Shown here: positions 7,582 to 32,865 of the stretch, one piece after another | Position numbering within the stretch: position 1 is the first letter of the stretch | How the letters are laid out: each line of letters starts with the position of its first letter | Virus record (IMG/VR): IMGVR_UViG_3300024265_000147 | Location: 1-34,470 of that record | Source: a virus | Strand: one strand, 5' to 3' | DNA: 34,470 nt | Notes under the pieces: generated by a model | Databases searched by the model: none | Told to the model about the DNA's origin: nothing | The model's input: only the letters and a program-made list of their open reading frames with translations | Translations under genes and position numbers: made by a program

Positions 7582-8371
7582 GAGCGAGTCCTCGCCGGCT
7601 TATGGGCGAGGGCGGCCTTCCGCTTCCGCTCCTCCGTCTCGTCGATGCTCTTCCAGTGATCGACCAGAACCTTGTCGACCTTCCAGACGATCCGCTTCAA
7701 GCGGTCCAGGTTGAGCCCGTAGGCGTCACAGTAGGCGGCGATCGCGGAGATCGGGATCGGCCCGCGCGGGTGTCGTCGCTCGCCCTGGAGATCCTGGAAG
7801 GCCTCCCAGTAGAGGAGGAAGGCCGGGTCGACCGTCGGCGGCGCCTCGAGATGTTCCGGAGGCGCGAGGCCTCGCTCCTTCATGGCCGCGATGATCTGGT
7901 CCGAGACCTTCGCGTCCCCGATCCGGAGCGTGTGATCGAGGACTTCTATGAGTTTCCCGCGGCGTCCTCTTCGTGGGCCGCGCGGTAGTGACCCCAGCGA
8001 AGCGCGACGACCTGGATCGCCTGGAAGAACTTCGGCGCGCGCTTGAAGAGGCGGACGGCGTTCGTCTCGGTGAACTTGAGCTTCGCGTCCTTTTTGTCCT
8101 TCGGATCCGTCCAGGTCCAGCCGAGGACGACCGTCCGGGCGTAGAGCTTCCAGAGAAGCTCGCGGTCGACATCGTCCTCGATCGAGTCCAGGCCGTTGCC
8201 CTTCATCCCGACCGCCAGTTCGGCGAGCTCGCGCCTGTAGTGGGAATTGAGCGCGGCGTCGGCCGGCCGGACCTTCACGACCGCGATCACTTTCCCGCCG
8301 AACTCGATCTCGCACTCTCGCCCCTCGCTCGCTAGTTTCTCGGATACTTCAAAGGCCTCTAAGACTCTCAC
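7578..8371 (-). CDS. Tail assembly chaperone GT fusion (made by -1 frameshift)
   Basis: Product expected if ribosomes slip back one base at the GGGAAAC heptamer at 7952-7958. The first 140 residues are shared with the short chaperone (start 8371). After ...DAAGN the reading continues LIEVLDHTLRIGDAKVSDQ... for 124 residues to the TGA that overlaps the tape measure start. Total is about 264 residues. The downstream part has no convincing start codon or ribosome site of its own, which supports production only as a fusion. This is the arrangement of lambda G/GT: the short form coats, and the T extension recruits, tape measure and tail tube protein during tail assembly. Coordinates span both frames: 8371-7952, then 7952-7578. 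Confidence 0.85.
7946..8371 (-). CDS. Tail assembly chaperone G (short form)
   Basis: 141 residues starting at GTG 8371 after AGGAGGAAGACC. The sequence begins MRVLEAFEVSEKLASEG and includes the segment KLFGGK-like FGGKVIAVVKVRPADAALN, then a conserved acidic-aromatic centre DRELLWKLYARTVVLGWTW typical of G-type chaperones of proteobacterial siphoviruses. It ends four codons after the slippery site (...AAGNS, TAG). It sits between the tail tube gene and the tape measure gene, the standard place. Immediately upstream of the ribosome site is a perfect hairpin (8384-8398). The first codons resemble a 12-codon ORF before the capsid gene (see findings). Confidence 0.85.
   Translation of the reverse strand: MRVLEAFEVSEKLASEGRECEIEFGGKVIAVVKVRPADAALNSHYRRELAELAVGMKGNGLDSIEDDVDRELLWKLYARTVVLGWTWTDPKDKKDAKLKFTETNAVRLFKRAPKFFQAIQVVALRWGHYRAAHEEDAAGNS
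7952..7958 (-). promoter_or_regulatory. Slippery heptamer GGGAAAC for -1 frameshifting
   Basis: On the coding strand the zero frame reads GCG GGA AAC TCA TAG. Slipping one base back reads GGG AAA and continues CTC ATA GAA in the long downstream frame. The heptamer fits the X-XXY-YYZ rule and differs in one base from the lambda GGGAAAG site. It lies six bases before the zero-frame stop codon, at the 3' end of a G-type chaperone gene, exactly where such sites are found. I did not establish a downstream pseudoknot. Confidence 0.88.
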
Positions 8372-8383
8372 GGTCTTCCTCCT

Positions 8384-8413: not shown

Positions 8414-9928
8414 CTACCGGGCGAAGTTCACGCGCTGGGTCGACATCGTGTAGCCGAACACCGACGAGAGGATCGCCTGGTAGGTTCCGGGGATCGTGAC
8501 GTCCGCGTTTTTGCCTGGGACATCCGGCGCTCCTCCGGAGAACTTGATCCGCGGGAGGTCGAAGATCAAGCTCCGCCCGTCGCCGCCCTGGGTGATGAGA
8601 TCGAGCGAGGTCTCCGCGTTCTGGAGGATGACCTGGAGGATCTCGTCGTTGTCGAAGTAAGTCGAGAGCGTTCCCGTGACCGAGAACTCGCCGACCCCGA
8701 TCCCAGACGCGCCGAAGACCCCGACCGCCGGCTGGCGGCGGAGGTTGTTGTTGATCTCGATCGTCGCCTCGAGGACGAAGTTGAGACCGGCGGCGTCGAC
8801 CGGGTCGATCCCTCGGCCGAGCCGGCCGATGTCGCTCGACGTGTTGTAGACGTCAAACTGTTCCGCGGCGAGGTCGTTCGGGAGGGTCGCGTAGAGCTCC
8901 GGGTAGGTCGGCGTGTTGTCCGAGACCGCCAAGTTGAAGCCAAAGAACGTGAGCGAGCCGACCGCGATCGCCTGGGGCGCGAGCGTGAGGTTGAAGGCGT
9001 TGATCGCCATCCCCAGGAAGAGCTCGCGCGTGATCGGGGAGTGATCCTCGAAGCGCCGCTCGAGCGCGAACTGGTGAGCCGAGATCGCCTGGGCGCCGTT
9101 CTCGATCCGCGAGCCGTAGAAGGCGAGGACCTGTTCGGTCCCCGCGGCGTCCGTGACCATGCCGGTCTGTGCCTCGGTCGTCATCGTGTCGGCCGTGAGG
9201 TCGATCTCACGAGCTCGGACCCAGATGTTGTTCCCGACGCTCGCAAAATCGGCGAACTTGAACCACTGGCCGATCAAGGCCGGAAGGCCTGGGCCGAAGG
9301 CGTTGTCGAGCGCGCCGGCGGGGAACTGGAACACGGCGTCGCCGCCGCCGACCGTGACGGAGATGTCGCCGACGCCCTGGGCCGCGAAGCCGGTGACGTT
9401 GATCCGGGTGAAGGCGTCGGCCGTCTCCGTTCCGAGGACCGCCGTCGTCGCGGTTCCCGCGAGCGGGTTGACCGTGAGGACGTTGACCGCGATCCCGGTG
9501 ATCTCGAAGATCCCGTCGCCGACGTCGCCCGTCGCGAGCTTCTGGAGGCGGATGATCTGGCCGACGATGAAGTCGGCGCCGTCGTCGACCGTGATCGTCC
9601 CCACGCCGAACGCGGTGATCTCGGCGGTCCCGACCTTCTCGATCGTCGCCGCGAACGTCGAGAACATCGACGACTCGATGAGTTGATCGAAGGCCTCGAA
9701 GGAGAGCTCGATCCCGGTGTCTCCTCCGGCTTCGGCCCCGACAAGGATGAGGTCGGAGATCTGGCGATCGGGCCTGATCTCCTCCGAGACGATCGTGTTC
9801 GGGACGAAGGCGAGGTTCGGCGTCCCGGTGAACCTTAACTGGTTGAGCGTGAAGGGTCCGCCAGGGATGGGGGCGGTCCGCTGGGAGCTTCGGAAAAAGC
9901 GAAGCCCGACTCGGTTCGTGTCAGACAT
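8414..9928 (-). CDS. Major tail tube protein
   Basis: 504 residues, start ATG with AGGAGAAG upstream. The N-terminus carries the hallmark of the siphovirus tail tube family I know as TTP_13: LRFTGTPNLAFVPNT, then SEEIRPDRQISDLI, then GAEAGGDTGIELSFEAFDQLIESSM. Residues about 100-180 add a beta-rich insertion (ITVDDGADFIVGQIIRL, ITGIAVNVLTVNPL) of the type inserted in many tube proteins, and a longer C-terminal domain follows (FGASGIGVGEFSVTGTLSTYF). It polymerises into the tail tube around the tape measure protein. The gene lies between the tail terminator and the assembly chaperones, the usual order. The length is greater than the roughly 300 residues typical of the core family. Confidence 0.9.
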   Translation of the reverse strand: MSDTNRVGLRFFRSSQRTAPIPGGPFTLNQLRFTGTPNLAFVPNTIVSEEIRPDRQISDLILVGAEAGGDTGIELSFEAFDQLIESSMFSTFAATIEKVGTAEITAFGVGTITVDDGADFIVGQIIRLQKLATGDVGDGIFEITGIAVNVLTVNPLAGTATTAVLGTETADAFTRINVTGFAAQGVGDISVTVGGGDAVFQFPAGALDNAFGPGLPALIGQWFKFADFASVGNNIWVRAREIDLTADTMTTEAQTGMVTDAAGTEQVLAFYGSRIENGAQAISAHQFALERRFEDHSPITRELFLGMAINAFNLTLAPQAIAVGSLTFFGFNLAVSDNTPTYPELYATLPNDLAAEQFDVYNTSSDIGRLGRGIDPVDAAGLNFVLEATIEINNNLRRQPAVGVFGASGIGVGEFSVTGTLSTYFDNDEILQVILQNAETSLDLITQGGDGRSLIFDLPRIKFSGGAPDVPGKNADVTIPGTYQAILSSVFGYTMSTQRVNFAR

Positions 9929-9957
9929 GGCGGTCTTCTCCTAGAGTTGAGGCCGTC

Positions 9958-10392
9958 TCACACGGACCGGAATGAGTCATATTCGACGAGGGCGTTGACG
10001 TTGACCTGGAACCATCCCTGGATCCGGCCGGCTTCGACGACGCCCTGGTCGCGGAAGCGGATCCCCGTGAGATGAACCGACTCGACGAAGTCGAGAAGGA
10101 TCTCCGCCAGGGTGTCCGCTCGAGCCTGGCCGGTATTATGCCGGACAAATACCTGGGCCGCGAAGATTGCCGTCCGGCGGACTTGCACCGACGCGCCGGC
10201 GCCGAGGCTGGCGAGCTCGCCGGTCGCGTGAGCGAGTGACGCGAAGACGTAGTCGTCGAGGCCGGCGGGATCGAAGTCCAGGTTGTCCCAGGCCACGGTC
10301 TCGAGGTCTTCGCCGGCGCCGGTCCAGTGACTCCCGAACGCGGTCCGAACCGTGTCGCGGAACTGGGCCGGGGTTCGTGTGCTGGCGCCCAT
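9958..10392 (-). CDS. Tail terminator protein (DUF4128-like)
   Basis: 144 residues: TPAQFRDTVRTAFGSHWTG, an acidic loop, then VRRTAIFAAQVFVRHNTGQ, a helix (ADTLAEILLDFVES) and a final strand QVNVNALVEYDSF. This alternation and the closing beta segment are characteristic of small tail-terminator proteins that cap the tail tube and join it to the neck. It directly precedes the tail tube gene. Its ATG overlaps the stop of the upstream gap/neck gene as ATGA. Confidence 0.75.
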   Translation of the reverse strand: MGASTRTPAQFRDTVRTAFGSHWTGAGEDLETVAWDNLDFDPAGLDDYVFASLAHATGELASLGAGASVQVRRTAIFAAQVFVRHNTGQARADTLAEILLDFVESVHLTGIRFRDQGVVEAGRIQGWFQVNVNALVEYDSFRSV

Positions 10393-12167: not shown

Positions 12168-15100
12168 CTACTGGCTCGAGTTCGACGCCGGCGACGAGAG
12201 CGACTGGACGGAGTTGAAGAGCCCGCTCGCGGGATCTTGCCGGCTATTCTCCAGGAATACCAGAAGCGATTGTAGCGAGTTCGGGATCCGTCGCGCGCCC
12301 TGGTCGAACATGATCCCGCTCAAGGTGAACGCGAGCTCGGCCAGGCCGGCGAGGTCGCCGACCCCGCGGAGGGTTCCGTCGGGCGTGATCGTGAGCGCCG
12401 CGGATCCGGAGATCCCCGCCATCCCGGCCAGGTTCCCGACTGGCGTGAGCGTCATGTCGATCGTCCCCTGGGCGAGGGCCTTCGCGACCATGTTCCCGGT
12501 CGCGTCGATGACGATGTCGATCGAGCCGGCGAGGTCTCCCTGGGAGACGAGCGTCCCCGTCGGCGTGAAGACGAGGGCGGCGGCGCCGGCAAGCGCGCCG
12601 AGGCCGACGATCGTCCCCGTCGGTGTCATGACCAGGGCGACCGATCCGGCCAGCGCGCCACGGGCGACCAGGGCGCCGGCGGCGTCGATCGTGATCGGGA
12701 TGACGCCGGCGAGATCGCCTCTCGACTGGAGGTTCCCGGCGACGTCGAAGACCAGGGCGGCGGATCCCGCGAGGGCTCCCTGGCCCGCCAGGGTTCCGGC
12801 CGCGGTGATCGTGAGCGGGATCGTCCCCGCGATGAGTTGCATCCCCTGGAGGATCCCGGTCGGCGTGAGGACCAGGTCGGCCGAGCCCAGGAGCTCGCCG
12901 ACGGCCGCGAGGATCCCCGCCGGCGTGATCGTCAAGGGGATCGTCCCCGCCAGGGCGCCGTCTCCGGTGAGGGTTCCGGTCGGTGTCAGAACGAGGTCGG
13001 AGGAGCCCAGGAGCTCGCCCAGGGCGACGAGGTTCCCCGTGAGGGTGAACGTCAAGGTCGCGGTCCCCAGGAGCCCGCCGGTCGCCTGGAGCGTCCCCGC
13101 GGGAGTGATGACCAGGCTCGCCGCGCCGGCAAGCGCGCCCAGGGCCTCGAGGGTTCCGGTCGCGACAAGGGTGAGCGGGATGACGCCGGCCAGGTTCCCG
13201 CCGACGGCGTTGAGGTCGCCGGTCGGAGTGATGACCAGGGCCGCGGATCCGATGAGCTCGCCCTGGGCCTGGAGGGTCGCCGTAGGTGTCAGAAGGAGCG
13301 CCACGGCCCCGGAGAGCTCGCCCAGGGCCTCGAGGGTTCCGGCTGGCGTGATCGTAAGGGCCGCCGCGCCGGCGAGGTCTCCGCGCGCCTGGATCGTGCC
13401 GGCTGGCGTGATGAGAAGCGCCGCGGATCCGGCCAGGGCCCCGACGCCGACCAGGGCGCCGGCTGGCGTGAGGACCATCGCCACGGTCCCGGAGAGCGGC
13501 CCAGCGCCCCGGAGGTTCCCCGTAGGTGTCAAGACAAGGGCCGCCGAGCCCGCGAGAGCTCCGAGCGCCTGGAGGGTCGCGGCTGGCGTGAGGACCAGGT
13601 CGGCGGATCCAGCGAGAGCTCCGCGCCCGACCAGAGCGCCGGCTGGCGTGAGGGCGAGGTCGATCGTCCCCTGGGCCGCCGCCTTCGCGATCATCGCGCC
13701 GGCTGGCGTGATGAGGAGGTCCGAGGATCCCGCGAGCTCGCCACGGGCCGCGAGCGTAGCCGCCGGCGTGAAGACCAGGTCCGAGGATCCGGCCAGGGCG
13801 CCTCGAGCGACGAGGTCGCCCGTCGGCGTGATGAGGAGGTCGATCGTCCCGAAGATGAGGTTGTTCCCTCCCTCCAGGACGCCGGCGACGGTGAAGACGA
13901 GCGGGATGTTCCCGGCCAGATCTCCGAGCCCGAAGATCGTCCCCGCCGGCGTGAGGGTGAGCGGGATCGTCCCGGCGATCTCCGCGTCCGCGCGGAGGAC
14001 GCCGGCCGGCGTGAGGACCAGGGAGGCGGAGCCCATCATCCGGCCGGTCCCCGAGAGCGCGTAGTAGCCGATGATCTCCGGCTGGTTCGTGTTCGGGTCG
14101 AAGATGATCGTCGGCTGTTGATCGAAGAACGGCTGGGCCTCTCCCATGCTTTGCACGTTGCCGCCGACGAAGTCCTGGCCCATGTTGAGGACGTTGATCG
14201 ACGAGCTCAAGGACTCGACCGGCGTCGTCGCGCTCGCGGTCGAGATCGCGTTGATCGAGTGACCCGTCGCCAGGCCGTCGAACGAGCCGAACGACGAGCG
14301 ACAGTTCTGATTGACATCCCGGTCCTCGTTCACGTCACTCGCCGAGCCGACCGAGTAGCCCTGGGGCACGAAGCCCAGGTCGGGGAAGACGTGAGTCGCC
14401 GGCGTCCCGCCGGTGTCCTTCGTCATCGTCCCGACGGCGACATCGAGGCCGCCGAGGTCGAGGATCATGTAGGCGAAGTGATCGGCGTTAGTGCCGGCCC
14501 AGGTGAAGCCGTCGCCCGAGAGCGCGGTGATCTGGATCGTCCAGTCGGCGAAGTCGACGTCGTACTGGCCGAGGAAGTCGGTCGACGTGACCGCCGAGCC
14601 CATGAAGTCCTCGTCGTTGTCGCCGACGTACTGGAAGAGCGCCCACTGGTCGATCGAGACGCCGTTGTCGTGTGCGACGCCGTAGGTCTGGAAGGCGAAC
14701 GGGGACTCGGCCGGAAACTGTTCGCCGGACGTGAAGCCCAGGAGGAGGTCGCCGTTCGCCAGGCCGAGCCCGGTGACGGGTGAGGCGTCGGCCCCGACGT
14801 CGGCCACGAACGCGGCGCCGGCTCCGCCGAAGACCTCGTAGTGGATCCGGAAGCCCGCCGCGGTCGTCGAATAGTCGACGGTGAACGTCCCCGCCTGGAA
14901 GGTGACGGTCGCGACGACTTGTTCGACGTCGTCGACCGGGTTCACGATGAGGATCGACGCGGTGATCGTTGACTGGCGGAGCGTGTTCGAGGCGCCGTCC
15001 TCGCGGTTGTGCATGATGGCCCGCTCGTTCGTGCCATCACTGAATCCGTGGCCGGTCTGGAAGTCGAGCTCGATGACCTGGTCCGAGAGGTTGTCGGTCC

Positions 15101-16049
15101 AATAGAAGTGAATCCCGAACGGGTCCTGGCCCTTGTCGCTCACGTCGATCACGGTGTCGGTCGACGCGAGCGCCGGCGTGACGAACTCGCCGGTCTTATA
15201 CCAGACCGCCGGCGGCGGCTCGCCGGAGATCACGGCCGAAGGCGTGAGGACGAGCGGGATCGTCCCGGAGATCGGGGCGTCGACGGCGACGGCTCCCGTC
15301 ACGGTGAAGGCGAGGTCGGCCGAGCCCTGGACGTTCGCGAGGGCCTCGATCGTGGCGGCCGGCGTGAGGGCGAGAGCGATCGAGCCGGAGAGGTTCCCGA
15401 CTACTGGGGCGAGCTCGATCGCGCACACGACCGCGCGGTTCTGGTCCGCCCAGGTCGCCTCGACGTTGACGTTCTGGCCGGTCGCGAAGAGGCCGGTCGC
15501 CATCGAGCCAGTCGTCGTCGGTGTTCCGCTTCCGTCTTGCTGGTCGGTTTGTTCGGTGAGGTCGGCGCCCCAGGTCGCGGTCGTCGCGTTGCCGACGCCG
15601 GCCAGGGCGACCACGGCCGCGCCATCGCCGGCGACGATGTCGGAGCCGGTGAGCGGGTTCGGAGTGTCGGCGGCCGTCTGGTCCGTGTTCGTCTCGGGGA
15701 CGCTCGCGGCGCCGCCGCCCTGGTTGACGTTCTCGAAGCTGATCGCGTGGAAGGAGAAGGCCGCCGCCTCGCCGGTGATGGCGATCGTCGTCCCGACGCC
15801 GGCGGTGATCCCCGCGTCGAGGAGGAGGAAGAGGAAGGCCTCCTGGTCGTTCGCGCCGGACTCCTCGAACACGGTGACGAGTTGGGTCATCGCCTGGCCG
15901 CCCCAAGTGACCGAGACCTGGTCGGCGGTGAGGTCGCCCTCGTGCTGGATCCCGACGATGAGGCCGCGGTCGACGCCGGCCGAGACCGGGAAGCTCGGGT
16001 TGTCCGTGTTACCGGACGCCGCCGCGTCGAGGATCGTGACGTCGGCCAT
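12168..16049 (-). CDS. Giant repeat protein, putative head/neck fibre
   Basis: 1293 residues, the largest gene here. Residues 1-215 form a beta-rich globular domain (VTWGGQAMTQLV, TTIAITGEAAAFSFHAISFENV, NRAVVCAIELAP). Three 20-residue repeats follow, then a domain of about 390 residues with lectin- or sandwich-like character. Residues about 670-1251 are 29 uninterrupted copies of a 20-residue unit, consensus ALAGSAALVLTPAGTLxAxG. A 42-residue tail rich in Ser, Asn and Gln ends the protein. Short hydrophobic strands alternating with Gly turns suggest a beta-solenoid or extended fibre. No signal peptide or membrane anchor. It lies between accessory virion genes and the neck genes, so a fibre or whisker attached to head or neck is my inference; an adhesin role is possible. 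Confidence 0.65.
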   Translation of the reverse strand: MADVTILDAAASGNTDNPSFPVSAGVDRGLIVGIQHEGDLTADQVSVTWGGQAMTQLVTVFEESGANDQEAFLFLLLDAGITAGVGTTIAITGEAAAFSFHAISFENVNQGGGAASVPETNTDQTAADTPNPLTGSDIVAGDGAAVVALAGVGNATTATWGADLTEQTDQQDGSGTPTTTGSMATGLFATGQNVNVEATWADQNRAVVCAIELAPVVGNLSGSIALALTPAATIEALANVQGSADLAFTVTGAVAVDAPISGTIPLVLTPSAVISGEPPPAVWYKTGEFVTPALASTDTVIDVSDKGQDPFGIHFYWTDNLSDQVIELDFQTGHGFSDGTNERAIMHNREDGASNTLRQSTITASILIVNPVDDVEQVVATVTFQAGTFTVDYSTTAAGFRIHYEVFGGAGAAFVADVGADASPVTGLGLANGDLLLGFTSGEQFPAESPFAFQTYGVAHDNGVSIDQWALFQYVGDNDEDFMGSAVTSTDFLGQYDVDFADWTIQITALSGDGFTWAGTNADHFAYMILDLGGLDVAVGTMTKDTGGTPATHVFPDLGFVPQGYSVGSASDVNEDRDVNQNCRSSFGSFDGLATGHSINAISTASATTPVESLSSSINVLNMGQDFVGGNVQSMGEAQPFFDQQPTIIFDPNTNQPEIIGYYALSGTGRMMGSASLVLTPAGVLRADAEIAGTIPLTLTPAGTIFGLGDLAGNIPLVFTVAGVLEGGNNLIFGTIDLLITPTGDLVARGALAGSSDLVFTPAATLAARGELAGSSDLLITPAGAMIAKAAAQGTIDLALTPAGALVGRGALAGSADLVLTPAATLQALGALAGSAALVLTPTGNLRGAGPLSGTVAMVLTPAGALVGVGALAGSAALLITPAGTIQARGDLAGAAALTITPAGTLEALGELSGAVALLLTPTATLQAQGELIGSAALVITPTGDLNAVGGNLAGVIPLTLVATGTLEALGALAGAASLVITPAGTLQATGGLLGTATLTFTLTGNLVALGELLGSSDLVLTPTGTLTGDGALAGTIPLTITPAGILAAVGELLGSADLVLTPTGILQGMQLIAGTIPLTITAAGTLAGQGALAGSAALVFDVAGNLQSRGDLAGVIPITIDAAGALVARGALAGSVALVMTPTGTIVGLGALAGAAALVFTPTGTLVSQGDLAGSIDIVIDATGNMVAKALAQGTIDMTLTPVGNLAGMAGISGSAALTITPDGTLRGVGDLAGLAELAFTLSGIMFDQGARRIPNSLQSLLVFLENSRQDPASGLFNSVQSLSSPASNSSQ
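12297..14042 (-). repeat. 29 tandem 60-bp repeats inside the giant gene
   Basis: The block encodes 582 residues = 29 units of 20, with a 22/19-residue pair at units 3-4 and one 21-residue unit (14). Position 4 of each unit is Gly, positions 6-10 hydrophobic, and TPAG or TPTG occupies positions 11-14 in most units. The codons differ between units, so the array is old and kept at the protein level, but runs such as GCCGGCTGGCGTGA (plus strand) recur. Confidence 0.9.
15222..15395 (-). repeat. Three further copies of the 20-residue unit, separated from the main array
   Basis: Encodes NLSGSIALALTPAATIEALA, then a unit with NVQGSADLAFTVTG and a unit with PISGTIPLVLTPSAVISG: 58 residues in all. The same consensus as the main array, about 1.2 kb upstream in the reading direction. 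The intervening segment encodes a non-repeat domain, as if inserted into a once longer array. Confidence 0.85.
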
Positions 16050-17736: not shown

Positions 17737-18168
17737 TCACGAGAACGTCCCCGTCCCGATGAGGATCCGCTGGCTCTTCGGTCCGAAGAAGAAGACCTGG
17801 AGAGTCCCCGTCGAGACGGCCGCGCCGCGCGTGATCGTAAGGGCCCGCGCCTCGATGAAGAGCGCGCGGATCGTTGTGAGGTTCGCCAGGTCTTCGGAGT
17901 TCCGAGCCTGGGCGGATCCGTCCGAGAAGAGCGTGTCGCCGGCGGGGATCGCGCCGGAGGCCGCGACGACCTGGGCGAGGATCCGGACGTTCGCCGGGAG
18001 GGTCAAGGTGTTCGGGAAGGCGGCGGACGGAAGCGCCGCTCCGAAGTCGAACGGCGAGGCGACGAGCCCCGCGATGTCGAAGTCCTTCTGGTCTTGTTTC
18101 TTCCGGCGTCTCACACGAGAGAAGAAGCCGCGCGCCTCATCGGCGGGGCGTCCCGTCGGCGTTGCCAT
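17737..18168 (-). CDS. Hypothetical protein, possible head decoration
   Basis: 143 residues. The first 28 are basic (ARGFFSRVRRRKKQDQK). The rest is a single beta-rich domain with hydrophobic strands (LPANVRILAQVVAASGAIP, TLQVFFFGPKSQRILIGTG). The lack of helices and small size fit a decoration or stabilisation protein, but no family was recognised. It follows the Pro/Ala-rich 217-residue gene after three bases. The stop TGA is overlapped by the ATG of a possible 19-codon ORF. Confidence 0.55.
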   Translation of the reverse strand: MATPTGRPADEARGFFSRVRRRKKQDQKDFDIAGLVASPFDFGAALPSAAFPNTLTLPANVRILAQVVAASGAIPAGDTLFSDGSAQARNSEDLANLTTIRALFIEARALTITRGAAVSTGTLQVFFFGPKSQRILIGTGTFS

Positions 18169-18171
18169 GCT

Positions 18172-18825
18172 CTACTCCGAGCCGGCGTTCGCGTCCGAGC
18201 CGCCTCCCGAGTCGTCGGCCGCCGGCTTCGCCTGGGACCTGGTCGGGCGGCCCATGCCGCGGGCGCGCTGAACGTGGAAGGCGTTGTCGATCGGAGACCT
18301 CCCGGCCGCCTTCAAGATCTCGGCGATCCTGGCGGGGTTCGTGGCGCGGCTTGCGCGGATCCTCTTCTGGGCCTTGATGTGACCGCGGACCGCGTCGACG
18401 AGCTTGTCGCTCTCCTGGGCGTGAGGGTAGAGCTCGGCCATGAGCTCGCGCGCTCGGGCCTTGCAATCATCGACGGCCGCCAGGGCTTCCACGAGCTCGC
18501 CCTGGACCGTCTCGAGCTTCTCGTAGATCCCGGCCTTCCGCTTGTCCTCGGCGTCCTCGACGGACGTGTCGGGTGTCGGAGAGGCGGCGATCGTCTCCTT
18601 CCGCCTGGTCGTGTCGGCGGCCTTTTTGTCGGCCTGGGCGGTGTTGAGGGGCGGGGCGATCGTCTGGGCTGGCGCGGGATCCGCTGGCGCCTCCGGAGCG
18701 GGCTCCGAAGCTGGGGCGGTCTCGGGTTCGGTCGAGCCGGTGTCGGCGTTGCCGGCGGCCGTCTCGAGTTCCTCGAGCTCGCTCGCCAGTTCGTCCGGGG
18801 TCGGCTGGTCGGTTCCGTTCGTCAT
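18172..18825 (-). CDS. Hypothetical acidic, proline/alanine-rich protein
   Basis: 217 residues in two halves. Residues 1-90 are low complexity, acidic and rich in Pro, Ala, Thr and Glu (EELETAAGNADTGS, APASEPAPEAPADPAPA) and are probably disordered. Residues 95-185 are predicted helical coiled coil (AEDKRKAGIYEKLETVQGEL, LMAELYPHAQESDKLVD) with a basic stretch (GHIKAQKRIRASRATNPARIAEIL). No family recognised. It follows the major capsid gene, a place often used for head accessory or neck genes. Confidence 0.6.
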   Translation of the reverse strand: MTNGTDQPTPDELASELEELETAAGNADTGSTEPETAPASEPAPEAPADPAPAQTIAPPLNTAQADKKAADTTRRKETIAASPTPDTSVEDAEDKRKAGIYEKLETVQGELVEALAAVDDCKARARELMAELYPHAQESDKLVDAVRGHIKAQKRIRASRATNPARIAEILKAAGRSPIDNAFHVQRARGMGRPTRSQAKPAADDSGGGSDANAGSE

Positions 18826-18860
18826 GTCGTCGGGTCTCCTGGTTGAAGGGAGCCGGCCAT
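18822..18860 (-). CDS. Possible 12-residue leader ORF before the 217-residue gene
   Basis: Opens MAGSLQPGDPTT from ATG 18860; the TGA overlaps the ATG of the next gene as ATGA. The ATG lies in the loop of the perfect hairpin at 18852-18870, with GGAGG at its base. Length and junction match the mini-ORF before the capsid gene. Translation is unproven. Confidence 0.3.
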   Translation of the reverse strand: MAGSLQPGDPTT

Positions 18861-18870
18861 CACGGCCGGC
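18852..18870 (-). other. Perfect hairpin downstream of the major capsid gene
   Basis: Coding strand: GCCGGCC-GTGAT-GGCCGGC, a seven-pair stem with a five-base loop. No U-tract follows, so full termination is unlikely. It may act as an mRNA stabiliser or partial attenuator that sets capsid expression above the next genes, or hide the mini-ORF start in its loop. Confidence 0.5.
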
Positions 18871-18894
18871 CTCCGACTGGGTGGAGTGAAGGGC

Positions 18895-19956
18895 CTAGAA
18901 CTCGGTCGTCACAAGGCGCGCGGCCTTGATCTGTTTCCTCTCCGGGAACGTCCGCGCCCAGTTGTTGACGCCGTCCGTGATCTCGGTGTTCGTCGGTCCG
19001 CCGTCGGGGTTCGCGACCGACGCGCCGAGGAAGTTATGGCCGACCGGGTGCATCGACCACTCGATCCGCGAGAAGAGCTCCTCGCCGCCGCCGCCGTTGC
19101 CCTGGCCGGGCTCGCGATCGACTTCGGCCGGGACCTTCGGGTTCCCGACGCCCCAGCGAGAGGCCATCGGTCCGAAGATCCAGGTGTCGAAGACGCCCGC
19201 CGCGTTCGGCATGGTGTCGTCCACGATCACGCGCCGACCGAGGAAGGTCGGGATGTCGGCCGCCGCCGCGTTCGTCGAGTCCGGGATGAAGTCGATGAGG
19301 TTGTTCTTCTGGGCCTTCGAGAAGACGATCGAGTGCATGAAGACCGCGACGAAGTCGCTCTGGGAATCGCCGGCGGTCGTGATGGCGTCGATGAACGCCT
19401 CCGCCGAGAAGTCCGTGACGCCGGGCGTGAAGACGCCCGAGATGTCGACCGTGAGGTCGTCCTGGGCGGCGTTGTTGGTGATGCCGGCCCGCGGGTCGTC
19501 GTTCGGCGTGACCTGGGCGTTGTCGGCGAAGATGCCGGTCCAGGTAGCGACGAACACGGCCTGGAGGCGTCTCCGCCAGTAGGCCGCCACGTTCGAGGCG
19601 ATCGAGTTCGCCGGGTCATCGCCCGCAAGCGCCGCGGCGAGGTCCATCGTCTTCCAGGACTGGTTCCGCGAGAGGCGTCTCGCGATCTCCTGGTTCGACT
19701 GGATGTTCGCCGGCGTGGCTACGGTCGCCGGGTTATCGCTCGAGACTCGATCGTCGAGGACGTTCGAGTCGTCATCGTTGTCACGCCACGAGGGCGCGTT
19801 GAATGAGGTCCCGCCGCCTACCAGAAAACCATCGAGCGCCGGATCACGAACGACGACGCCGGAGTCGACGAGCGCGGTCTTTTGCTCGGTAAGTGTTCTA
19901 ACGTAAGGGGCGAAGATCTCCGGGACTACTACGTCAGCGACGCGGACTTCGGCCAT
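18895..19956 (-). CDS. Major capsid protein
   Basis: 353 residues. The opening MAEVRVADVVVPEIFAPYV, then ALVDSGVVVRDPALDG, FNAPSWRD, WKTMDLAAALAGDDPANSI and a VAAYWRRRLQAVFVATW segment, is typical of a siphovirus coat protein family (V-x-x-A-D-x-x-VPE-F-x-PY). The middle holds FVAVFMHSIVFSKAQK and GRRVIVDDTMP, as in other coat proteins. An HK97-type fold is assumed from family knowledge, not shown. It follows the scaffold gene, has one of the strongest ribosome sites in the window (AAAGGAGAGATTCTG) and is preceded by an overlapping mini-ORF. No N-terminal protease-cleaved region is evident. Confidence 0.9.
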   Translation of the reverse strand: MAEVRVADVVVPEIFAPYVRTLTEQKTALVDSGVVVRDPALDGFLVGGGTSFNAPSWRDNDDDSNVLDDRVSSDNPATVATPANIQSNQEIARRLSRNQSWKTMDLAAALAGDDPANSIASNVAAYWRRRLQAVFVATWTGIFADNAQVTPNDDPRAGITNNAAQDDLTVDISGVFTPGVTDFSAEAFIDAITTAGDSQSDFVAVFMHSIVFSKAQKNNLIDFIPDSTNAAAADIPTFLGRRVIVDDTMPNAAGVFDTWIFGPMASRWGVGNPKVPAEVDREPGQGNGGGGEELFSRIEWSMHPVGHNFLGASVANPDGGPTNTEITDGVNNWARTFPERKQIKAARLVTTEF

Positions 19957-19994
19957 CAGAATCTCTCCTTTGCTTCAAAGGCCGAGACCCTCAC
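19956..19994 (-). CDS. Possible 12-residue leader ORF ending on the capsid start codon
   Basis: GTG 19994 opens MRVSAFEAKERF, with TGA sharing bases with the capsid ATG (CTGATGG). The peptide and its DNA (GTGAGGGTCT...GGCCTTTGAAG) resemble the first codons of the tail chaperone gene at 8371 (MRVLEAFEVSEK). It also contains the capsid ribosome site. A regulatory or vestigial role is inference. Confidence 0.35.
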   Translation of the reverse strand: MRVSAFEAKERF

Positions 19995-20023
19995 GGAGTC
20001 GGCGGATGTTTACAGGCGCGAGT

Positions 20024-20866
20024 CTACCGCACAGGAGCGACCGCGCCTAGTTCTACGCCGGCGGCCTTCATGAGCCGCTCGGCTTCGGGCTTGTTCTCGG
20101 TGTAGAGCTTCCCCTGGGCCGTCATGTTCCAGCCGGCCTTCGCCCACGGGTTCCCCTTGCTGAGATCTCCGCCGGCGCCAGGGCCTCCCGCCCCGTCGCC
20201 ATCGGCTCCGGCTCCGACCGACTTCGGCCAGAACATCCGGAACGCCTTGTCGCGCGCGACCGCCGCGATGAAGTCCTCGGGCTTCTGGTTCGGAGTCACT
20301 CCGGGACCGGCCTCGAGTTTCGTCACGACGCTCCCATCTTGCGCGAGCTCGAAGTTCCGCTCGATGAGCGAGACGAGGTTCGTCACGCCTTCCGGCGTCG
20401 CGCCGGCGGCGTTCGCGGCCTGGGTGAGCGAGTTTCTAATTGTTGTGTCCTTGCTCTTCCCCAGGGCGTCGTCTCGTTCCGCGTTCGACTTCTCGAGCTC
20501 CTTCGTGACCGAGGCGAGGTTCCTCTCGAGGTCGTGGAGACGCGCGGACACGTCTCCGTCGGCTCCGTTCCCGCCGTCGGTCCCGTCGCCCTTGCCCGGC
20601 GTCGCGCCAGGCTTGACGAACTTCTTGAGCGACGCCTCGATGATGTCCGTGACATCGTCACGGGAGAGGCCCGCGCCTTGCTTCCTCGCGAAGTCGGCGC
20701 CGGCGTCGGTGAGCCGTTTCTTCAAGGCCTCGGCGTAGTCGTCGAAGTCCTTCTGGGTCTTCATCCCCGTCACGTCCAGGACGAACACGCCGTCGGTCTC
20801 GACGTAGTGCGCGGCCAGGCCTTCCGGGATCTTCGCCTTGTCTTGAATCGTGGCTTCGAGGGTCAT
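20024..20866 (-). CDS. Capsid scaffolding protein
   Basis: 280 residues, strongly charged. Residues about 105-135 form a coiled coil (VSARLHDLERNLASVTKELEKS), preceded by a Gly/Asp/Lys-rich linker (GKGDGTDGGNGADG). Residues 140-190 hold RNSLTQAANAAGATPEGVTNLVSLI. The C-terminal part ends NPWAKAGWNMTAQGKLY...NKPEAERLMKAAGV, a pattern usual in phage scaffolds. It sits directly before the major capsid gene. Scaffolds direct shell assembly and leave the mature head. ATG start; the intergenic interval before it (63 bases) contains promoter-like hexamers with wrong spacing. Confidence 0.85.
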   Translation of the reverse strand: MTLEATIQDKAKIPEGLAAHYVETDGVFVLDVTGMKTQKDFDDYAEALKKRLTDAGADFARKQGAGLSRDDVTDIIEASLKKFVKPGATPGKGDGTDGGNGADGDVSARLHDLERNLASVTKELEKSNAERDDALGKSKDTTIRNSLTQAANAAGATPEGVTNLVSLIERNFELAQDGSVVTKLEAGPGVTPNQKPEDFIAAVARDKAFRMFWPKSVGAGADGDGAGGPGAGGDLSKGNPWAKAGWNMTAQGKLYTENKPEAERLMKAAGVELGAVAPVR

Positions 20867-20929
20867 GTCGGCTTCCTCTCACAGGATCGCGCCGATCATA
20901 GCGCGAGACTTATGTCAAATCTAGCCGGA

Positions 20930-23815: not shown

Positions 23816-25263
23816 GCGGCTCCTCTAATCGAGCCCGACTTCGGGCGTCGGGGTTGTCTCACGGCTCGGTGATACGCTCGAGAGAAGGCGTCGACCTGGT
23901 CCTTGAACGTGCTCCCAGGGAAGGCCGCGGCCTCATCCAGGAAGACACCATTCCAGGCTCCACGAACGAGGAACACGTTCCCCGCTTCGACTTGTGCCGC
24001 TGGCGCCTCGGCTCGGGTCTCCTTCGCGCCGCTCTCCGGCGTGTAGAAGATCCGACGGTCCGGGAAGTCCGCGGCGATGTCTTGCGCCTGGGCCTTCCCG
24101 GCCTGGCCGGGATCCTGCGGGAAGTCGATGATGACGACCTTCCCGTCCTGGTCCGCCGCGGTTCTCATTGTTGTCCGGACTTTATGCGGCGAGCCTCGGA
24201 GACGAATCACGTCCTCGACGTAGATCTTCCGCTTAACGTAGCGGAGTTTCAAGCCGACGGTCCAGGCCGCCTTCTTCGCCTCGACGGCCGCGGCGTCGGT
24301 CGCCGCCAGGTCCCAGCCGCGGACAATGGTCCCGCCCTTCGGGACGTCGGCCGCGTCGATGATCTGGAAGTCGTCGCGCTTCATCATCCCGCCCTCGCGA
24401 GGGTGCGGGCGTTGTTGAAGTTGTCCGGCTTCGCCGTACTCGGTGAGCCCGACCGTGAGCTCGTCGATCCGGGCCTGGTCGAAGAGCTCCGGGAAGAGGA
24501 GCTCGCCGTCCGTCTTGCGCCAGTCGAACGGACACGGGTGAGGATGATCGAGCTCGAACTTCGCGGGGAGACATAGGTGAGTCCAGAGCTCGCCCTCCTC
24601 GTCCAGGAAGACGCCGGTGAGATCGCGCGGGTGTAGCCGTTGCATGATGACGACGACGGCGCCGGTCTTCGAGCGGATCCTGGTCGGGAGCGCGAGGCGG
24701 ATCTTCCGGATCGTCTCGTCGCGGACCGTGTCGCTCTCGGCTTGTTCGACGTTGTGCGGGTCATCGAGGACGACGATGTCGCCGCCCTCTCCCATGATGC
24801 CGGCGACGGCGCTCGAGAATCGGTAGCCGCCCTGATTGTTCGCGAAGCGGCTCTTCGTATCCTGGCCGGCGCGGAGGAGGGCCCACTGGCTCGGCCGGCC
24901 CGTGAGGAGCTCCTGGTAGAACTCCGAGCGGATGAGATCCCGCGAGCGATCGGCGTCACGGAGCGCCAGGTCGCCGCGGTAGGACGTGAACGCGAAGCGG
25001 ACCTCGGGCTTCATGAGCCAGGCCCAGGCCGGCCAGAAGACCGACACGGTGAGGCTCTTCATGTGACCGGGCGGGACGTTGATGATGAGCCGGCGGATCC
25101 GGCCCTTGAGGACTTGCTCGAGGATCCAGGCGAGCGTCCGGGTGTAGCGGCCGAAGGACGGCGGCGCCGGGTCGACCCAGCGCCAGGCGTCGCGGATGAA
25201 GTCGTGGAGGCCGAGCCCTCGGCGAGCTCGTTCGGCTCTAATCCTCGCGAGGGCCGGCTTCAT
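23812..25263 (-). CDS. terL: Terminase large subunit
   Basis: 483 residues. The ATPase half has Walker A NVPPGHMKS (62-70), Walker B VVLDDPH with D167/D168, and the coupling-like segment IMQRLHPRDLTG (207-218). The nuclease half has the RNase H-type acidic residues: GWDLA with D318, VVIIDFPQDPG with D380 and D384, and a final acidic helix with D455 and D458. Length is normal. It pumps and cuts DNA at the portal during packaging. The ATG lies inside the end of the small terminase gene (26-base overlap) without a clear ribosome site, so coupled translation is likely. Confidence 0.95.
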   Translation of the reverse strand: MKPALARIRAERARRGLGLHDFIRDAWRWVDPAPPSFGRYTRTLAWILEQVLKGRIRRLIINVPPGHMKSLTVSVFWPAWAWLMKPEVRFAFTSYRGDLALRDADRSRDLIRSEFYQELLTGRPSQWALLRAGQDTKSRFANNQGGYRFSSAVAGIMGEGGDIVVLDDPHNVEQAESDTVRDETIRKIRLALPTRIRSKTGAVVVIMQRLHPRDLTGVFLDEEGELWTHLCLPAKFELDHPHPCPFDWRKTDGELLFPELFDQARIDELTVGLTEYGEAGQLQQRPHPREGGMMKRDDFQIIDAADVPKGGTIVRGWDLAATDAAAVEAKKAAWTVGLKLRYVKRKIYVEDVIRLRGSPHKVRTTMRTAADQDGKVVIIDFPQDPGQAGKAQAQDIAADFPDRRIFYTPESGAKETRAEAPAAQVEAGNVFLVRGAWNGVFLDEAAAFPGSTFKDQVDAFSRAYHRAVRQPRRPKSGSIRGAA

Positions 25264-25756
25264 CGGCGCCCGCCTTCACGAGAATCCGCTCGAGAGCTTC
25301 GAGCTCGTGGTCCTCGAGGAGGGTGAGGTCCGCGGTCGCCGGGAGAAGATCGTCGGCCGGGCGTTCGTCGCCGCGGCTGGGCTTGAACTCGGGGAAGTAG
25401 CCGCCGATGAGTTGCGAGAGGAGTCGGTCCGAGGGTTCCTTGACGCGGAGCGTCCCCTTCGTGTCGACGTACTCGGTCCAGTTGTAAGCGCGCCGCCATC
25501 CCTCGCCGACCAGGAGCTCGCGGCCTTCGGTGAGCGCCTCCCTCATCGCCTCCCGGAAGCTCGGGTTCTTCCCGGCGAAGGCGTAGATCGTCGAGCGGCT
25601 CCAGCCGATCATCCGAGCGGAGAGCGAGACGTTCCCATTGTGCCGGAGCGCCTCGAGGAAGCGGACGATGTGAAGCGGGACGACCTTCGACGAACGGCCG
25701 GTCGCGCGCGCGTCGGGGGCGTCTGGTTTTTGTTCGTTCGGCGGGTCCTGGGCCAT
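25238..25756 (-). CDS. terS: Terminase small subunit
   Basis: 172 residues from ATG 25756, five bases after GGAGG. An upstream extension to 25822 is possible but overlaps the RusA gene and lacks a ribosome site. Residues 30-75 carry a helix-turn-helix: HIVRFLEALRHNGNVSLSA followed by IGWSRSTIYAFAGKNPSF. This is the DNA-recognition domain that picks the packaging start site. The rest is helical with a Gly/Tyr segment (SQLIGGYFPEFKPS) and an acidic C-terminus suited to oligomerisation. The start codon lies in the loop of a short GGCC/GGCC hairpin. Confidence 0.85.
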   Translation of the reverse strand: MAQDPPNEQKPDAPDARATGRSSKVVPLHIVRFLEALRHNGNVSLSARMIGWSRSTIYAFAGKNPSFREAMREALTEGRELLVGEGWRRAYNWTEYVDTKGTLRVKEPSDRLLSQLIGGYFPEFKPSRGDERPADDLLPATADLTLLEDHELEALERILVKAGADEAGPRED

Positions 25757-25775
25757 CACGGCCTCCGGGGTCGTC

Positions 25776-26228
25776 TCACACGATCGGGGTCCGATCGTAG
25801 ACTTCCCAGGATCCCCGCACAAGGGCGCCCAGGTCGACCGGGAGCTCGTAGAAGGGGAGCCAGTCGTCGGAGATCACGATGACGCCGGTGAAGCCCCAGA
25901 GCTTCGTCGCGGCGTAGTTCCAGACGTGGGAGTCCTCGCGGTCGCGATAGACCCCGTCGATGAGCGCCTTGACGAGGTTGTCGGTGTCGGGCTTGAGCTC
26001 GTGAGGATGTCCGCAGAGCTCGAGCTTCTTCTTCCGCGACCAGGACTCGGACATCGGGATCACGAAGACGACGTGAAAAAAGTCCGCGGGGAGCTCCTGG
26101 ACCTTGTAGCCGATGTGATCCCGGAAGGCGCGGTAGTTCTGGACGGCCCTCGAGGGCGCCCACTTGTCGCGCCGAGATTGCCTGGGCGCCGCGACGGGTG
26201 CGATGTCGAGGACCCGGAGCTCGCTCAC
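25776..26228 (-). CDS. rusA: RusA-like Holliday junction resolvase
   Basis: 150 residues, GTG start overlapping the TGA of the upstream mini membrane gene (GTGA). RusA signature: P-x-x-R-x-x-x-K at the N-terminus, KPDTDNLVKALIDG with D81, D83 and K87, and a following acidic loop (REDSHV, D99). E. coli RusA uses D70, D72, K76 and D91, so all key residues are represented. The enzyme cuts four-way junctions as dimers and would resolve branched DNA before packaging, which suits its place directly before the terminase genes. A C-terminal extension of about 30 residues (LPFYELPVDLGALVRG...) is not part of the core. Confidence 0.9.
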   Translation of the reverse strand: MSELRVLDIAPVAAPRQSRRDKWAPSRAVQNYRAFRDHIGYKVQELPADFFHVVFVIPMSESWSRKKKLELCGHPHELKPDTDNLVKALIDGVYRDREDSHVWNYAATKLWGFTGVIVISDDWLPFYELPVDLGALVRGSWEVYDRTPIV

Positions 26229-29639: not shown

Positions 29640-30119
29640 TCAATCCTCCGCCGGCGGCCTGGGCGCCGCGTTCGTTCGCTGGATGTGACCGACGTCCGCG
29701 AGCGTCTGGTCCTCGGTTGAGCCGTCCCGGTCGAAGTCGCCGCCCCAGGTGATCTCGATGTTGAGCGTGTGCGCCGCCGCCTGGATGATGCCGGCGACGA
29801 AGGAGAAGAGCTTCACGTCGGTCCAGGGGATCCCCTTCTTCCCGGATCGGAGCGTGATGTAGGGCGCGAAGTCGCAAGCGTCCGAACACGCGAGGCCGTC
29901 GCCGTCGGTCGCGTTGTGGTAGGAGGCCGGCCAGCGCGCGTTCGTGAAGCGCGGGTCGATGTCGTTCTGTTCGACCTTGTCGCGGAAGCCGTGGACGATC
30001 GTGATGTCGATCGCGGCCGGCGTCATCTTGAGGGCCTCGGCCATGACGAGACGGATCTCGTCGTGGCACGTCATGAGCTTCGCGGTTGATCTCGTTCCGT
30101 ATTGATGCGACGCGGCCAT
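29640..30119 (-). CDS. Endolysin, M15-type (L-Ala-D-Glu or D,D) peptidase
   Basis: 159 residues, no signal peptide, so release needs the holin. Family pattern: YGTRSTAKLMTCHDEIRLVM at the start, ITIVHGFRDKVEQN, then ARWPASYHN with H68, DFAPY with D83, WGGDFDRDG (125-133) and a final GHIQ with H145. H68, D83 and H145 are the expected zinc ligands. Compared with relatives, the H-to-D loop carries about six extra residues including Cys78 and Cys82 (ACSDAC). It cuts the peptide part of peptidoglycan. The gene is the first after the strong terminator at 30210, with CAGGAGG before the ATG. Confidence 0.88.
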   Translation of the reverse strand: MAASHQYGTRSTAKLMTCHDEIRLVMAEALKMTPAAIDITIVHGFRDKVEQNDIDPRFTNARWPASYHNATDGDGLACSDACDFAPYITLRSGKKGIPWTDVKLFSFVAGIIQAAAHTLNIEITWGGDFDRDGSTEDQTLADVGHIQRTNAAPRPPAED

Positions 30120-30209
30120 GAGGGCCTCCTGGATCCCGCCGACGGCTACCAGTCAGGGTTCGACGGCTTCGAGTGACTCACGGCCCTCACGGCCTGGGTC
30201 GAGCATAGC

Positions 30210-30237
30210 AAAAAAAAAGGCCCCGAAAAACGGGGCC
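30210..30237 (-). terminator. Intrinsic terminator between early and lysis genes
   Basis: Coding strand: GGCCCCG-TTTTT-CGGGGCC followed by nine T. A seven-pair GC stem with a five-base loop and a U-tract is a textbook Rho-independent terminator. It ends transcripts of the recombination and regulatory operon before the endolysin gene, so lysis and structural genes probably need their own promoter or antitermination. The reverse strand would give an A-tract, so it acts one way only. Confidence 0.92.
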
Positions 30238-30314
30238 GAGGCGAGACGTCACGATCGACTTCTTCGTCCGACTCGCGCGCCGGCGCCCAGGAGGACGCCC
30301 GGCGCCGGCGTTAA

Positions 30315-30560: not shown

Positions 30561-30889
30561 GTCATCGAGCTCCGGAGATCCTTCACGAACTTCTCGAGCT
30601 CGGGGCCTCGAGGGCCGGCGATGACGTCGGCGGTGAACGTGCCGGCGAGCGACTTCTTCACGATGACGAGGTCCCAGGTCCCGGTCGAGTCGCGGTAGAA
30701 GATCTCATAGTCCTCGAGCGATCGCTGGACCTTCGTCGCGACCAGGTTGAGGACGTTCTCGAGGTCGTTCGTGACCGACATCCCGCCGAGATCCTTGTCG
30801 ACGATCCGGATCTCGAGCCGGTTCTCTTCGACGTGAAGCTCGAAGTCGGCGCGGACCAGGCGGACGACCATGTCGAGCCGGAGCTTCAT
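30557..30889 (-). CDS. Hypothetical protein
   Basis: 110 residues: a beta-rich N-terminus (KLRLDMVVRLVRADFELHV) followed by LEIRIVDKDLGGMSV, a helix (LENVLNLVATKVQRSL) and DSTGTWDLVIVKKSLAGTF. The mix suggests a small alpha/beta fold. No family recognised. Its start overlaps the stop of the coiled-coil gene by four bases and its stop the start of the next, so the three are translated as a coupled unit. It may assist the recombination proteins upstream. Confidence 0.6.
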   Translation of the reverse strand: MKLRLDMVVRLVRADFELHVEENRLEIRIVDKDLGGMSVTNDLENVLNLVATKVQRSLEDYEIFYRDSTGTWDLVIVKKSLAGTFTADVIAGPRGPELEKFVKDLRSSMT

Positions 30890-31602: not shown

Positions 31603-31619
31603 TGTGTCCTCCTGGCGCC

Positions 31620-32642: not shown

Positions 32643-32679
32643 GTTGATCTCCTGCAAAGGGCCCGCCCAGTGTACCATC

Positions 32680-32865
32680 TCACGGGACGCGAGTCTCTTC
32701 TCCTGGGTCCTCTCGGATGTTCGGCGACAGGCACTCGGGGCACATGAAGAGGGCCTGGGCGAAGCGGACGTTCTCGACGCCGGTCTCCGGGTCCTTCGTC
32801 TTCGGGCCCTCCGAGAAGCTGGGCTCCTCGAAGATCGCGCCGCAATCGCGGCAACGACCGCTCAC
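32680..32865 (-). CDS. Zinc-ribbon protein
   Basis: 61 residues from GTG 32865, overlapping the TGA of the winged-helix gene. Two CxxC pairs, CRDCG at the start and CPEC near residue 47, form a zinc ribbon, with a charged stretch between (GPKTKDPETGVENVRFAQ). Tiny zinc ribbons in phages often modulate host RNA polymerase or nucleases, but here the partner is unknown. It sits 37 bases before the recombinase gene. Confidence 0.65.
   Translation of the reverse strand: MSGRCRDCGAIFEEPSFSEGPKTKDPETGVENVRFAQALFMCPECLSPNIREDPGEETRVP

Follow-up and report, generated by a model that had tools for sequence, protein, structure and literature searches.

The stretch from position 1 to 34,470 of the virus record IMGVR_UViG_3300024265_000147 of IMG/VR, called the window hereafter, carries ten short RNA hairpins at nine of its genes, with a loop consensus of GUGA plus any base and a pyrimidine-purine closing position. 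The genes in question are on the minus strand of the window, and "sense" means the coding strand throughout. Hairpins of this family recur in related viral contigs, on the sense strand and at gene starts, with arms that covary around an invariant loop. From these features, we consider it reasonably probable that stem-Y-[GUGAN]-R-stem hairpins at about nine gene starts constitute a phage-wide post-transcriptional operator, which would be read by a trans-acting RNA-binding protein. An earlier note on this DNA had drawn attention to a mini open reading frame (mini-ORF) in front of the major capsid gene that mimics the start of the tail assembly chaperone gene, and this mimic can be understood as one conspicuous part of an RNA regulon that spans the genome. 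Such a regulon escapes Rfam scans of this window: there were 0 matches at the gathering score and, at E values up to 1, 4 matches below the gathering scores. One of these four, to asX2, lies on the opposite strand at 30169-30238 and so overlaps the leader of the endolysin gene.

Constant loop and covarying arms

How often, and where, does the element recur? The relatives used for the following counts are uncultured, partly redundant and partly incomplete contigs, and their gene starts were called with a simple Shine-Dalgarno (SD) rule. We fetched 25 of them; with that of the window included, 7 of the 26 contigs are near-duplicates of others. The motif CCGTGAGGG is present in 24 of the 26 related viral records (not in G022 and G024), and its reversed-letter control gave 0 in all. 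In the 25 relatives, redundant ones included, 69 copies lie on the coding strand versus 14 on the other strand, with 1 to 6 coding-strand copies per record having any. Many copies precede different genes, and their flanking bases differ yet pair, for example TTCGACC-GTGAG-GGTCGAA, GGCCC-GTGAG-GGGCC, GCCGGCC-GTGAG-GGCCGGC and AAACC-GTGAG-GGTTT. Flanks that differ but still pair are a signature of an RNA hairpin.

Pentaloops were scanned on both strands of 19 non-redundant contigs (502,647 nt), oriented by the capsid gene or else taken as deposited. GTGAG comes first by count, and also by rate if only loops with at least 100 occurrences are compared: 31 of 1198 (2.6%) are closed by at least five strict pairs versus 0.21% overall (binomial 3e-23), and these 31 strong hairpins are divided into 29 sense and 2 antisense. 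Of the GTGAT loops (13 of 1069), some are variants of this element at orthologous positions (window 18851-18871). If GTGAG sites are chosen by location only, 12-60 nt before an SD-preceded start, 53 of 84 have at least four pairs and 22 have no pairs. When the 3' arms were shuffled 10,000 times, the number with at least four pairs was 8.9 on average and never above 19; these 84 sites include orthologs and hence are not independent. With redundant contigs included, an SD and an ORF start are found within 95 nt of 110 of the 125 sense sites that have a stem of at least 4, as against 141 of 323 sites with a stem of 0-2 and 11 of 29 antisense sites with a stem of at least 4.

Covariation was examined among orthologs of the tail tube gene, whose 39 leader rows, L143 and L144 being excluded as not including the start, come to 28 distinct leaders. 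The 19 distinct 21-mers of this site have 84.2% paired cells versus 72.5% when shuffled and 14 doubly changed cells versus 4.5, and 5 of 7 pairs change on both sides. Covariation is 0.384 versus 0.196 shuffled (0/500), and slid partners give 0.035-0.146. Tail-tube orthologs therefore show both the covarying pairs and the conserved loop of a structured RNA. In thirty distinct non-window hairpins from different genes, 91.7% of cells are paired and each of the six pairs covaries, although these figures only describe the element, because the hairpins were selected for pairing. A covariance model was built from these 30 hairpins with no window sequence. Among its top 11 matches in the window, 8 are coding-strand leaders (two with E <0.01 and six with E 0.07-0.54) and the other three are not leaders; the search is not fully independent because orthologs share sequence with the window.

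Eight window hairpins were admitted by at least four contiguous pairs, and those of the capsid and chaperone genes, listed in the next section, by orthology. The eight, together with neighbouring features, are as follows.

8414-9928, minus strand: tail tube gene, Phage_tube_2 (PF18906), E 4.3e-28
9953-9965, minus strand: hairpin CCGT[GTGAG]ACGG before the tail tube gene; GTGAG in 28/28 distinct leaders
18851-18871, minus strand: hairpin GGCCGGCC[GTGAT]GGCCGGCT before gene 18172-18825, a loop variant
20024-20866, minus strand: scaffold gene, phrog_206
20874-20886, minus strand: scaffold hairpin TCCT[GTGAG]AGGA, its 3' arm being part of the SD
25238-25756, minus strand: small terminase gene, phrog_4044
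25771-25783, minus strand: hairpin TCGT[GTGAG]ACGA before the small terminase gene
29640-30119, minus strand: endolysin gene, phrog_465
30182-30194, minus strand: endolysin leader hairpin GGCC[GTGAG]GGCC, downstream of a -10-like TATGCT
30886-31602, minus strand: exonuclease-like gene, phrog_10477
31614-31628, minus strand: hairpin GGCGC[GTGAG]GCGCC of the exonuclease-like gene, abutting AGGAGG
34071-34087, minus strand: second hairpin of the zinc-ribbon leader, TTTCTC[GTGAG]GAGAAG, overlapping the SD
34089-34143, minus strand: terminator-like hairpin plus T-run enclosing the next hairpin (fold prediction)
34110-34124, minus strand: zinc-ribbon leader hairpin GATCC[GTGAG]GGGTC, nested in the terminator-like stem

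The site before gene 18172-18825 has a GTGAG loop in G003 and G010. A local hairpin was found at 7 of 7 loci of the exonuclease set and 7 of 13 of the endolysin set, plus the window in both cases. Directly after the first hairpin of the small terminase gene, its start coincides with a second GUGA-type hairpin, GGCC[GTGAT]GGC(C/T) (window 25749-25765, minus strand): the first base of the ATG is within the loop, and AGGAGG or GGAGG extends into the 5' arm. Similar sites are seen in G002, G003, G005, G006, G012, G014, G021 and G023. Another copy, (T)CGT[GTGAG]ACG(A) at window 18107-18117 (minus strand), lies within the apparent coding region of the gene after 18172-18825 and was not counted; coding-region copies also occur in G005 (4679), G006 (8547) and G010 (4707).

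The capsid leader and the mini-ORF

The two loci at which the mimic was noticed contain the following features.

7946-8371, minus strand: tail assembly chaperone gene, phrog_313, E 1.4e-14
8362-8376, minus strand: chaperone start hairpin AGAC-C[GTGAG]A-GTCT with the GTG start codon in the loop, included by orthology
18895-19956, minus strand: major capsid gene, phrog_247 major head protein, E 1.7e-92
19956-19994, minus strand: mini-ORF, GTG to a TGA overlapping the capsid ATG; not conserved and judged incidental
19988-19996, minus strand: capsid-leader element CC[GTGAG]GG, GTG 38 nt upstream of ATG; invariant in 32/32 distinct leaders

The letters which the earlier note gave for both loci are present exactly, on the minus strand. 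On the capsid side CCGTGAGGGTCT (19996-19985) is followed after a 1-nt gap by GGCCTTTGAAG (19983-19973), and on the chaperone side CCGTGAGAGTCT (8373-8362) is followed after a 4-nt gap by GGCCTTTGAAG (8357-8347). It is also correct that the mini-ORF, from GTG at 19994 to TGA at 19958-19956, stops on the capsid start, sharing one base with the ATG (TGATG), and that the two sides encode similar peptides of 12 residues. How much weight can such a pair carry? With at most one mismatch, GGCCTTTGAAG has 2 matches versus 0.22 expected. Combinations of pair and gap as good as this number 16 on the real sense strand and 45 on the other strand, all origins counted together. After dinucleotide shuffling of the sense strand, 18 of 100 sequences still hold at least one equally good gapped match, so that the window pair by itself is weak evidence.

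An alignment of leaders in relatives, which had been proposed as a check, separates what is kept from what is not. The capsid leaders amount to 41 rows (40 related loci and the window), or 32 distinct leaders over 90 nt; the loci L041-L044 (49% identity) were excluded from the set, and CCGTGAGGG is absent from these four. In all 32 distinct leaders CCGTGAGGG is kept with its GTG 31 to 41 nt before the ATG, and the remainder of the leader, the spacing to ATG and the reading frame are all variable. The frame class of the GTG relative to the capsid ATG is 1 in 17 leaders, 2 in 13 and 0 in 2, and a TGATG-overlapping frame is found in 0 of the 31 other distinct leaders. GGCCTTTGAAG occurs in 1 of 32, namely the window. 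It was rejected as part of a shared element, being confined to that one leader on the capsid side and encoding EAFE, of a conserved EAF(E) peptide, on the chaperone side; the capsid-side copy sits in a predicted SD-occluding stem, CCTTTG-AAG-CAAAGG.

A translated leader peptide that is coupled to the capsid start, and copied from or mimicking the chaperone gene, would fit the TGATG overlap and the similar peptides in the window. Against it, the 31 other distinct leaders do not keep the frame, length and stop of the mini-ORF, an SD in front of it is not apparent, and GGCCTTTGAAG is specific to the window, so that the mini-ORF as a coupled unit was rejected and this explanation seems scarcely credible. 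The idea of a shared translational operator survives in outline, as the CCGTGAG core at both sites is the recurring GUGAN-loop hairpin, but without its GGCCTTTGAAG half and without the mini-ORF. The other two origins proposed for the mimic are disfavoured: a promoter or operator acting as DNA because the arms covary as RNA and strong hairpins are nearly all on the sense strand (29 versus 2 antisense), and a scar of recombination between the capsid and chaperone loci because seven other window genes bear the hairpin with different arms. A short motif repeated in the DNA between genes might likewise be a repressor operator, or a packaging or replication signal; however, varying but complementary arms around a fixed asymmetric loop, with 29 of 31 strong hairpins on the sense strand, make any such DNA-level site very improbable.

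At the chaperone start, the window hairpin has a closing C.A mismatch followed by four pairs. Fifteen of 16 loci in the chaperone set include the gene start, not all of them distinct, and in all 15 and in the window the gene begins GTG-AG[A/G]. AGA and AGG make up 9.6% of Arg codons in 12 window genes; as these codons are rare yet constant at the chaperone start, the first Arg codon suggests selection on the nucleotides.

Start pairing and the level of control

Can the constant letters also pair elsewhere in the leader? In fold predictions they do so at some genes. For 31 of the 32 distinct capsid leaders, the minimum-energy fold engages five or more of the nine CCGUGAGGG bases with the region around the start codon, typically GCCGUGAGGG with CCCUCAUGGC, the SD being in the enclosed part. 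A YYTCA-like partner stands before the capsid ATG in 27 of the 32 leaders (not in the window, L012, L033, L036 and L045). The window element has just two local pairs and can alternatively pair toward the start codon, and another start-occluding fold is predicted for its leader, GGGUCUC:GAGAUUC plus CCUUUG:CAAAGG. The predicted duplex with the gene's own start is -18.5 kcal/mol at 14 MAEV capsid sites versus -9.5 to other hairpin genes, and -15.5 versus -11.0 kcal/mol at two MSEV capsid sites. Strong own-start pairing (-14.6 to -28.8 kcal/mol) is also predicted for six of seven endolysin-position groups, two of these six encoding another, unassigned protein there, and the endolysin leader element of the window is complementary to GGCCCTCATGGCC at the start. 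Own-start pairing of the portal-position gene is stronger in G017 and G018, not in G014, and there is no own-start excess at exonuclease, scaffold, zinc-ribbon, small-terminase and most tail-tube sites. Judging from these models, start pairing is a feature of a few genes, and the capsid and most endolysin-position leaders can hold GUGAGGG in two mutually exclusive states.

Since the GUGA loop is fixed even where nothing is predicted to pair with it, and stems are free, a sequence-specific reader is expected, most simply a protein, which is probably encoded by the phage. We infer translation to be the level of control, because promoter-proximal and between-gene sites have the translation start in common and four hairpins touch the SD or the start codon. 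An RNA-binding protein would read the fixed loop and leave the stem sequence free as long as pairing persists. The scaffold, exonuclease-like and chaperone genes and the second zinc-ribbon site have an SD or start codon that is covered or adjoined by the hairpin, and binding there would compete with the 30S subunit and cause repression. In the capsid and most endolysin-position leaders, where GUGAGGG is predicted to pair with the AUG region, a protein bound to the local hairpin would release the start and thereby activate.

Several results weigh against such an operator. The probability of the local closing pair is 0.00-0.01 across the 32 capsid leaders, and the window has no YYTCA, otherwise the usual partner, in front of its capsid ATG. 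Over 90 sites, the duplex with the own start is little stronger than that with other hairpin genes (-9.3 vs -8.5 kcal/mol; 96 control starts gave -7.2). Of nine window leaders, just four (those of scaffold, exonuclease, zinc-ribbon and gene 18172) are predicted to adopt the local hairpin at minimum energy; the other five, of capsid, chaperone, tail tube, small terminase and endolysin, fold otherwise. Six of 13 endolysin loci have no hairpin, five of them at 30-42% identity and L162 at 70%, and L154-L156 retain it with other arms and weak start pairing (-8.3 to -9.3). In many chaperones, that of the window included, the closing position is a C.A mismatch. The covariance model ranks the window capsid hairpin 37th (E 4.2) and the scaffold hairpin 19th (E 0.91), and six of the eight leader matches in its top 11 are those with E 0.07-0.54. 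NP1 (Nipunavirus) holds a single CCGTGAGGG over its entire record, and its first 50,000 nt (of 58,566) show no hairpin set; the best match of the model in these 50,000 nt has E 0.22, so the model alone does not separate weaker sites. As for the candidate zinc-ribbon gene 33870-34064, described below, it was not found in the 39,900 of 43,089 nt searched of G014, where hairpins are kept, and its leader in G003 has no GTGA hairpin of at least 3 pairs within 99 nt. Finally, of 127 Y[GTGAN] sites, 40 follow a -10-like box of the TANNNT type at a distance of 6-30 nt, versus 4.6% of random positions.

This last result favours another explanation, in which RNA polymerase would be the target: like lambda boxB or HK022 put, the hairpin would serve as a transcription-elongation signal with which phage transcripts begin. 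The boxB of lambda and P22, which serves antitermination at few sites, has a short stem, a 5-nt loop beginning with G and a pyrimidine-purine closing pair, and these traits are shared by the present hairpin, although the loop sequences differ. One hairpin is moreover nested in a terminator-like stem of the zinc-ribbon leader. However, the tail tube, exonuclease and small terminase sites lie where one gene adjoins the next, and the ORF on the upstream side terminates within the loop, the chaperone has its start codon in the loop, and the 3' arm of the scaffold hairpin is part of the SD. In addition, lambda has two nut sites, not ten on gene starts, and no consistent boxA was seen in capsid leaders by eye. 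We therefore consider an elongation signal unlikely. The upstream TANNNT boxes are often TAGACTCG, TATGCTCG or TACGATCGG, and several scaffold leaders have in common a TTGACATAAGTCTCGCG-N-TATRRTC whose spacer is unusually short. Terminator-like nesting with other arms is also visible by eye in G001, G005, G006 and G025, which suggests attenuation.

It might also be possible that the structure works purely in cis, by sequestering or spacing the ribosome-binding site, stabilising the mRNA or allowing re-initiation after an upstream stop, with no trans-acting factor at all. The predicted pairing of GUGAGGG with the start region in capsid and most endolysin-position leaders would agree with this, and so would the stop codons that the loop TGA provides at several sites: it ends ORF 9958-10392 at the tail tube hairpin, ORF 25776-26228 at the small terminase hairpin and ORF 31620-32678 at that of the exonuclease-like gene. 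A cis structure leaves unexplained, however, why the loop is the same at exonuclease, zinc-ribbon and most tail-tube sites, where no start pairing is predicted, and the previous likely gene has already ended before the capsid, endolysin and zinc-ribbon leaders, so that only chance frames end in the loop there. This explanation, too, appears to us unlikely, and an operator read in trans is preferred.

Candidate proteins and known systems

What kind of protein might read the hairpins? Two small proteins encoded in the window come into consideration.

33870-34064, minus strand: small CxxC..CxxC zinc-ribbon protein, candidate trans-acting factor
32680-32940, minus strand: second small CxxC..CxxC zinc-ribbon protein, second candidate; homologs in 10/10 large contigs

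Both match generic zinc-ribbon models below the cut-offs. Homologs of the first are found in 9 of 10 large contigs, and leader hairpins in 8 of these 9. It was not accepted as a proven regulator in view of the gene not found in G014 and the missing leader hairpin in G003. Presence singles out no candidate, because the second zinc-ribbon protein is found in 10 of 10 large contigs (in G014 the link runs by way of G003 and G017 only), and 9 of 10 have a Cys-rich protein, the window's contig being the exception. This Cys-rich protein, a 102-aa protein at 33242-33550 and an XRE protein at 34151-34411 are further candidates. In G014, tandem hairpins at 5339 and 5381, GGGGAGT[GTGAG]ACTCCTC and TCCTGGC[GTGAG]GCCAGGA, flank a T-run after an XRE gene and, by eye, precede a frame for a short membrane-like peptide in place of the zinc-ribbon gene.

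We may go one step further and suppose that one small zinc-ribbon (or winged-helix) protein reads the GUGA hairpins on about ten mRNAs, repressing some and activating those of capsid and endolysin. Scaffold, chaperone, recombination and the regulator's own gene would be the repressed ones, and capsid and endolysin would be activated by breaking the start-occluding structure. We regard this bolder version as doubtful. If true, it would be a switch of the Com/mom type expanded to a phage-wide regulon that times assembly and lysis.

Among described systems, the logic of Com of phage Mu is the nearest. Com is a small zinc protein whose binding site is CC(N)2-3GAG within the loop of a hairpin, and it activates translation of mom, whose start codon is held in a structure near the Com hairpin (PMC6483171). 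The present system may, by analogy, work like Com: CCGUGAG corresponds to CC-N2-GAG, stems vary, occlusion of the start is possible in the capsid and endolysin leaders, and among the proteins of these phages are small CxxC..CxxC ones, one of which has two hairpins in the leader of its gene. A start codon within a competing inhibitory structure, as in mom, is predicted in 31 of 32 capsid leaders and in six of seven endolysin-position groups. There are also differences. Com as described there acts on one mRNA, unlike the roughly ten hairpins in one phage here. CC(N)2-3GAG is present as CCGTGAG in 32 of 32 capsid leaders, but CC precedes the loop in just 16 of the 30 seed hairpins, and where present it is paired in the stem, the loop being GUGAG. 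The Com family (PF10122) was above its cut-off in 0 of 10 contigs, which may be fragments, with a sub-threshold match in G005 (13.9 bits against a cut-off of 22.9).

Coat operators of the MS2 type are short hairpins with a specific loop that serve translational repression. A hairpin operator is also used by gp43 of T4 and RB69 (PMC3014915). The present hairpins are similarly short with a specific loop, but those operators have a single autogenous target and the present element is on many genes. In contrast, RegA of T4 is one phage protein that acts on about 30 mRNAs at translation initiation regions (PMC3014915). Its sites, in that account, are A+U-rich without apparent structure; those found here are no unstructured A+U-rich AUG sites but fixed-loop hairpins, mostly G+C-rich, which stand on structural and lysis genes as well. 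In cluster K mycobacteriophages, a short conserved element, the start-associated sequence, is found at many gene starts mostly in one orientation, and its authors suggest a role in translation initiation (PMC3203893). That element is a fixed 13-bp GGGATAGGAGCCC with an SD core in the non-structural-gene half of the genome, and RNA pairing of its extended inverted repeats is little supported according to the same authors (PMC3203893), unlike the covarying arms here. The 13-bp GGGATAGGAGCCC is in none of the ten window hairpins, no separate search of the window having been made.

In the openly licensed papers of PMC, we found neither this element nor a comparable phage-wide hairpin, nor an RNA operator common to early, structural and lysis genes within a single family of tailed phages. 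All 709 matches of the capsid protein to named relatives have less than 60% identity. In a search for the host, the capsid alignment gave no relative among genome contigs. The large terminase gave 3 distant ones, the best of 34% in a Nitrospira metagenome-assembled genome, in which a GUGAN-type hairpin was not found in the 13,032 nt examined. A constant loop with covarying stems at many genes offers a handle for finding the binding protein, and the hairpin might perhaps be usable as a compact part for translation control.

Two further features of the window deserve mention. At 33544-33552 (minus strand), CCGTGAGGG forms a GTGA stop/start overlap between ORF 33547-34038 and a 102-aa frame (33242-33550), with two pairs only. 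Within the 1293-aa ORF 12168-16049, window positions 12300-15400 contain a long array of diverged repeats with a period of about 60 nt.

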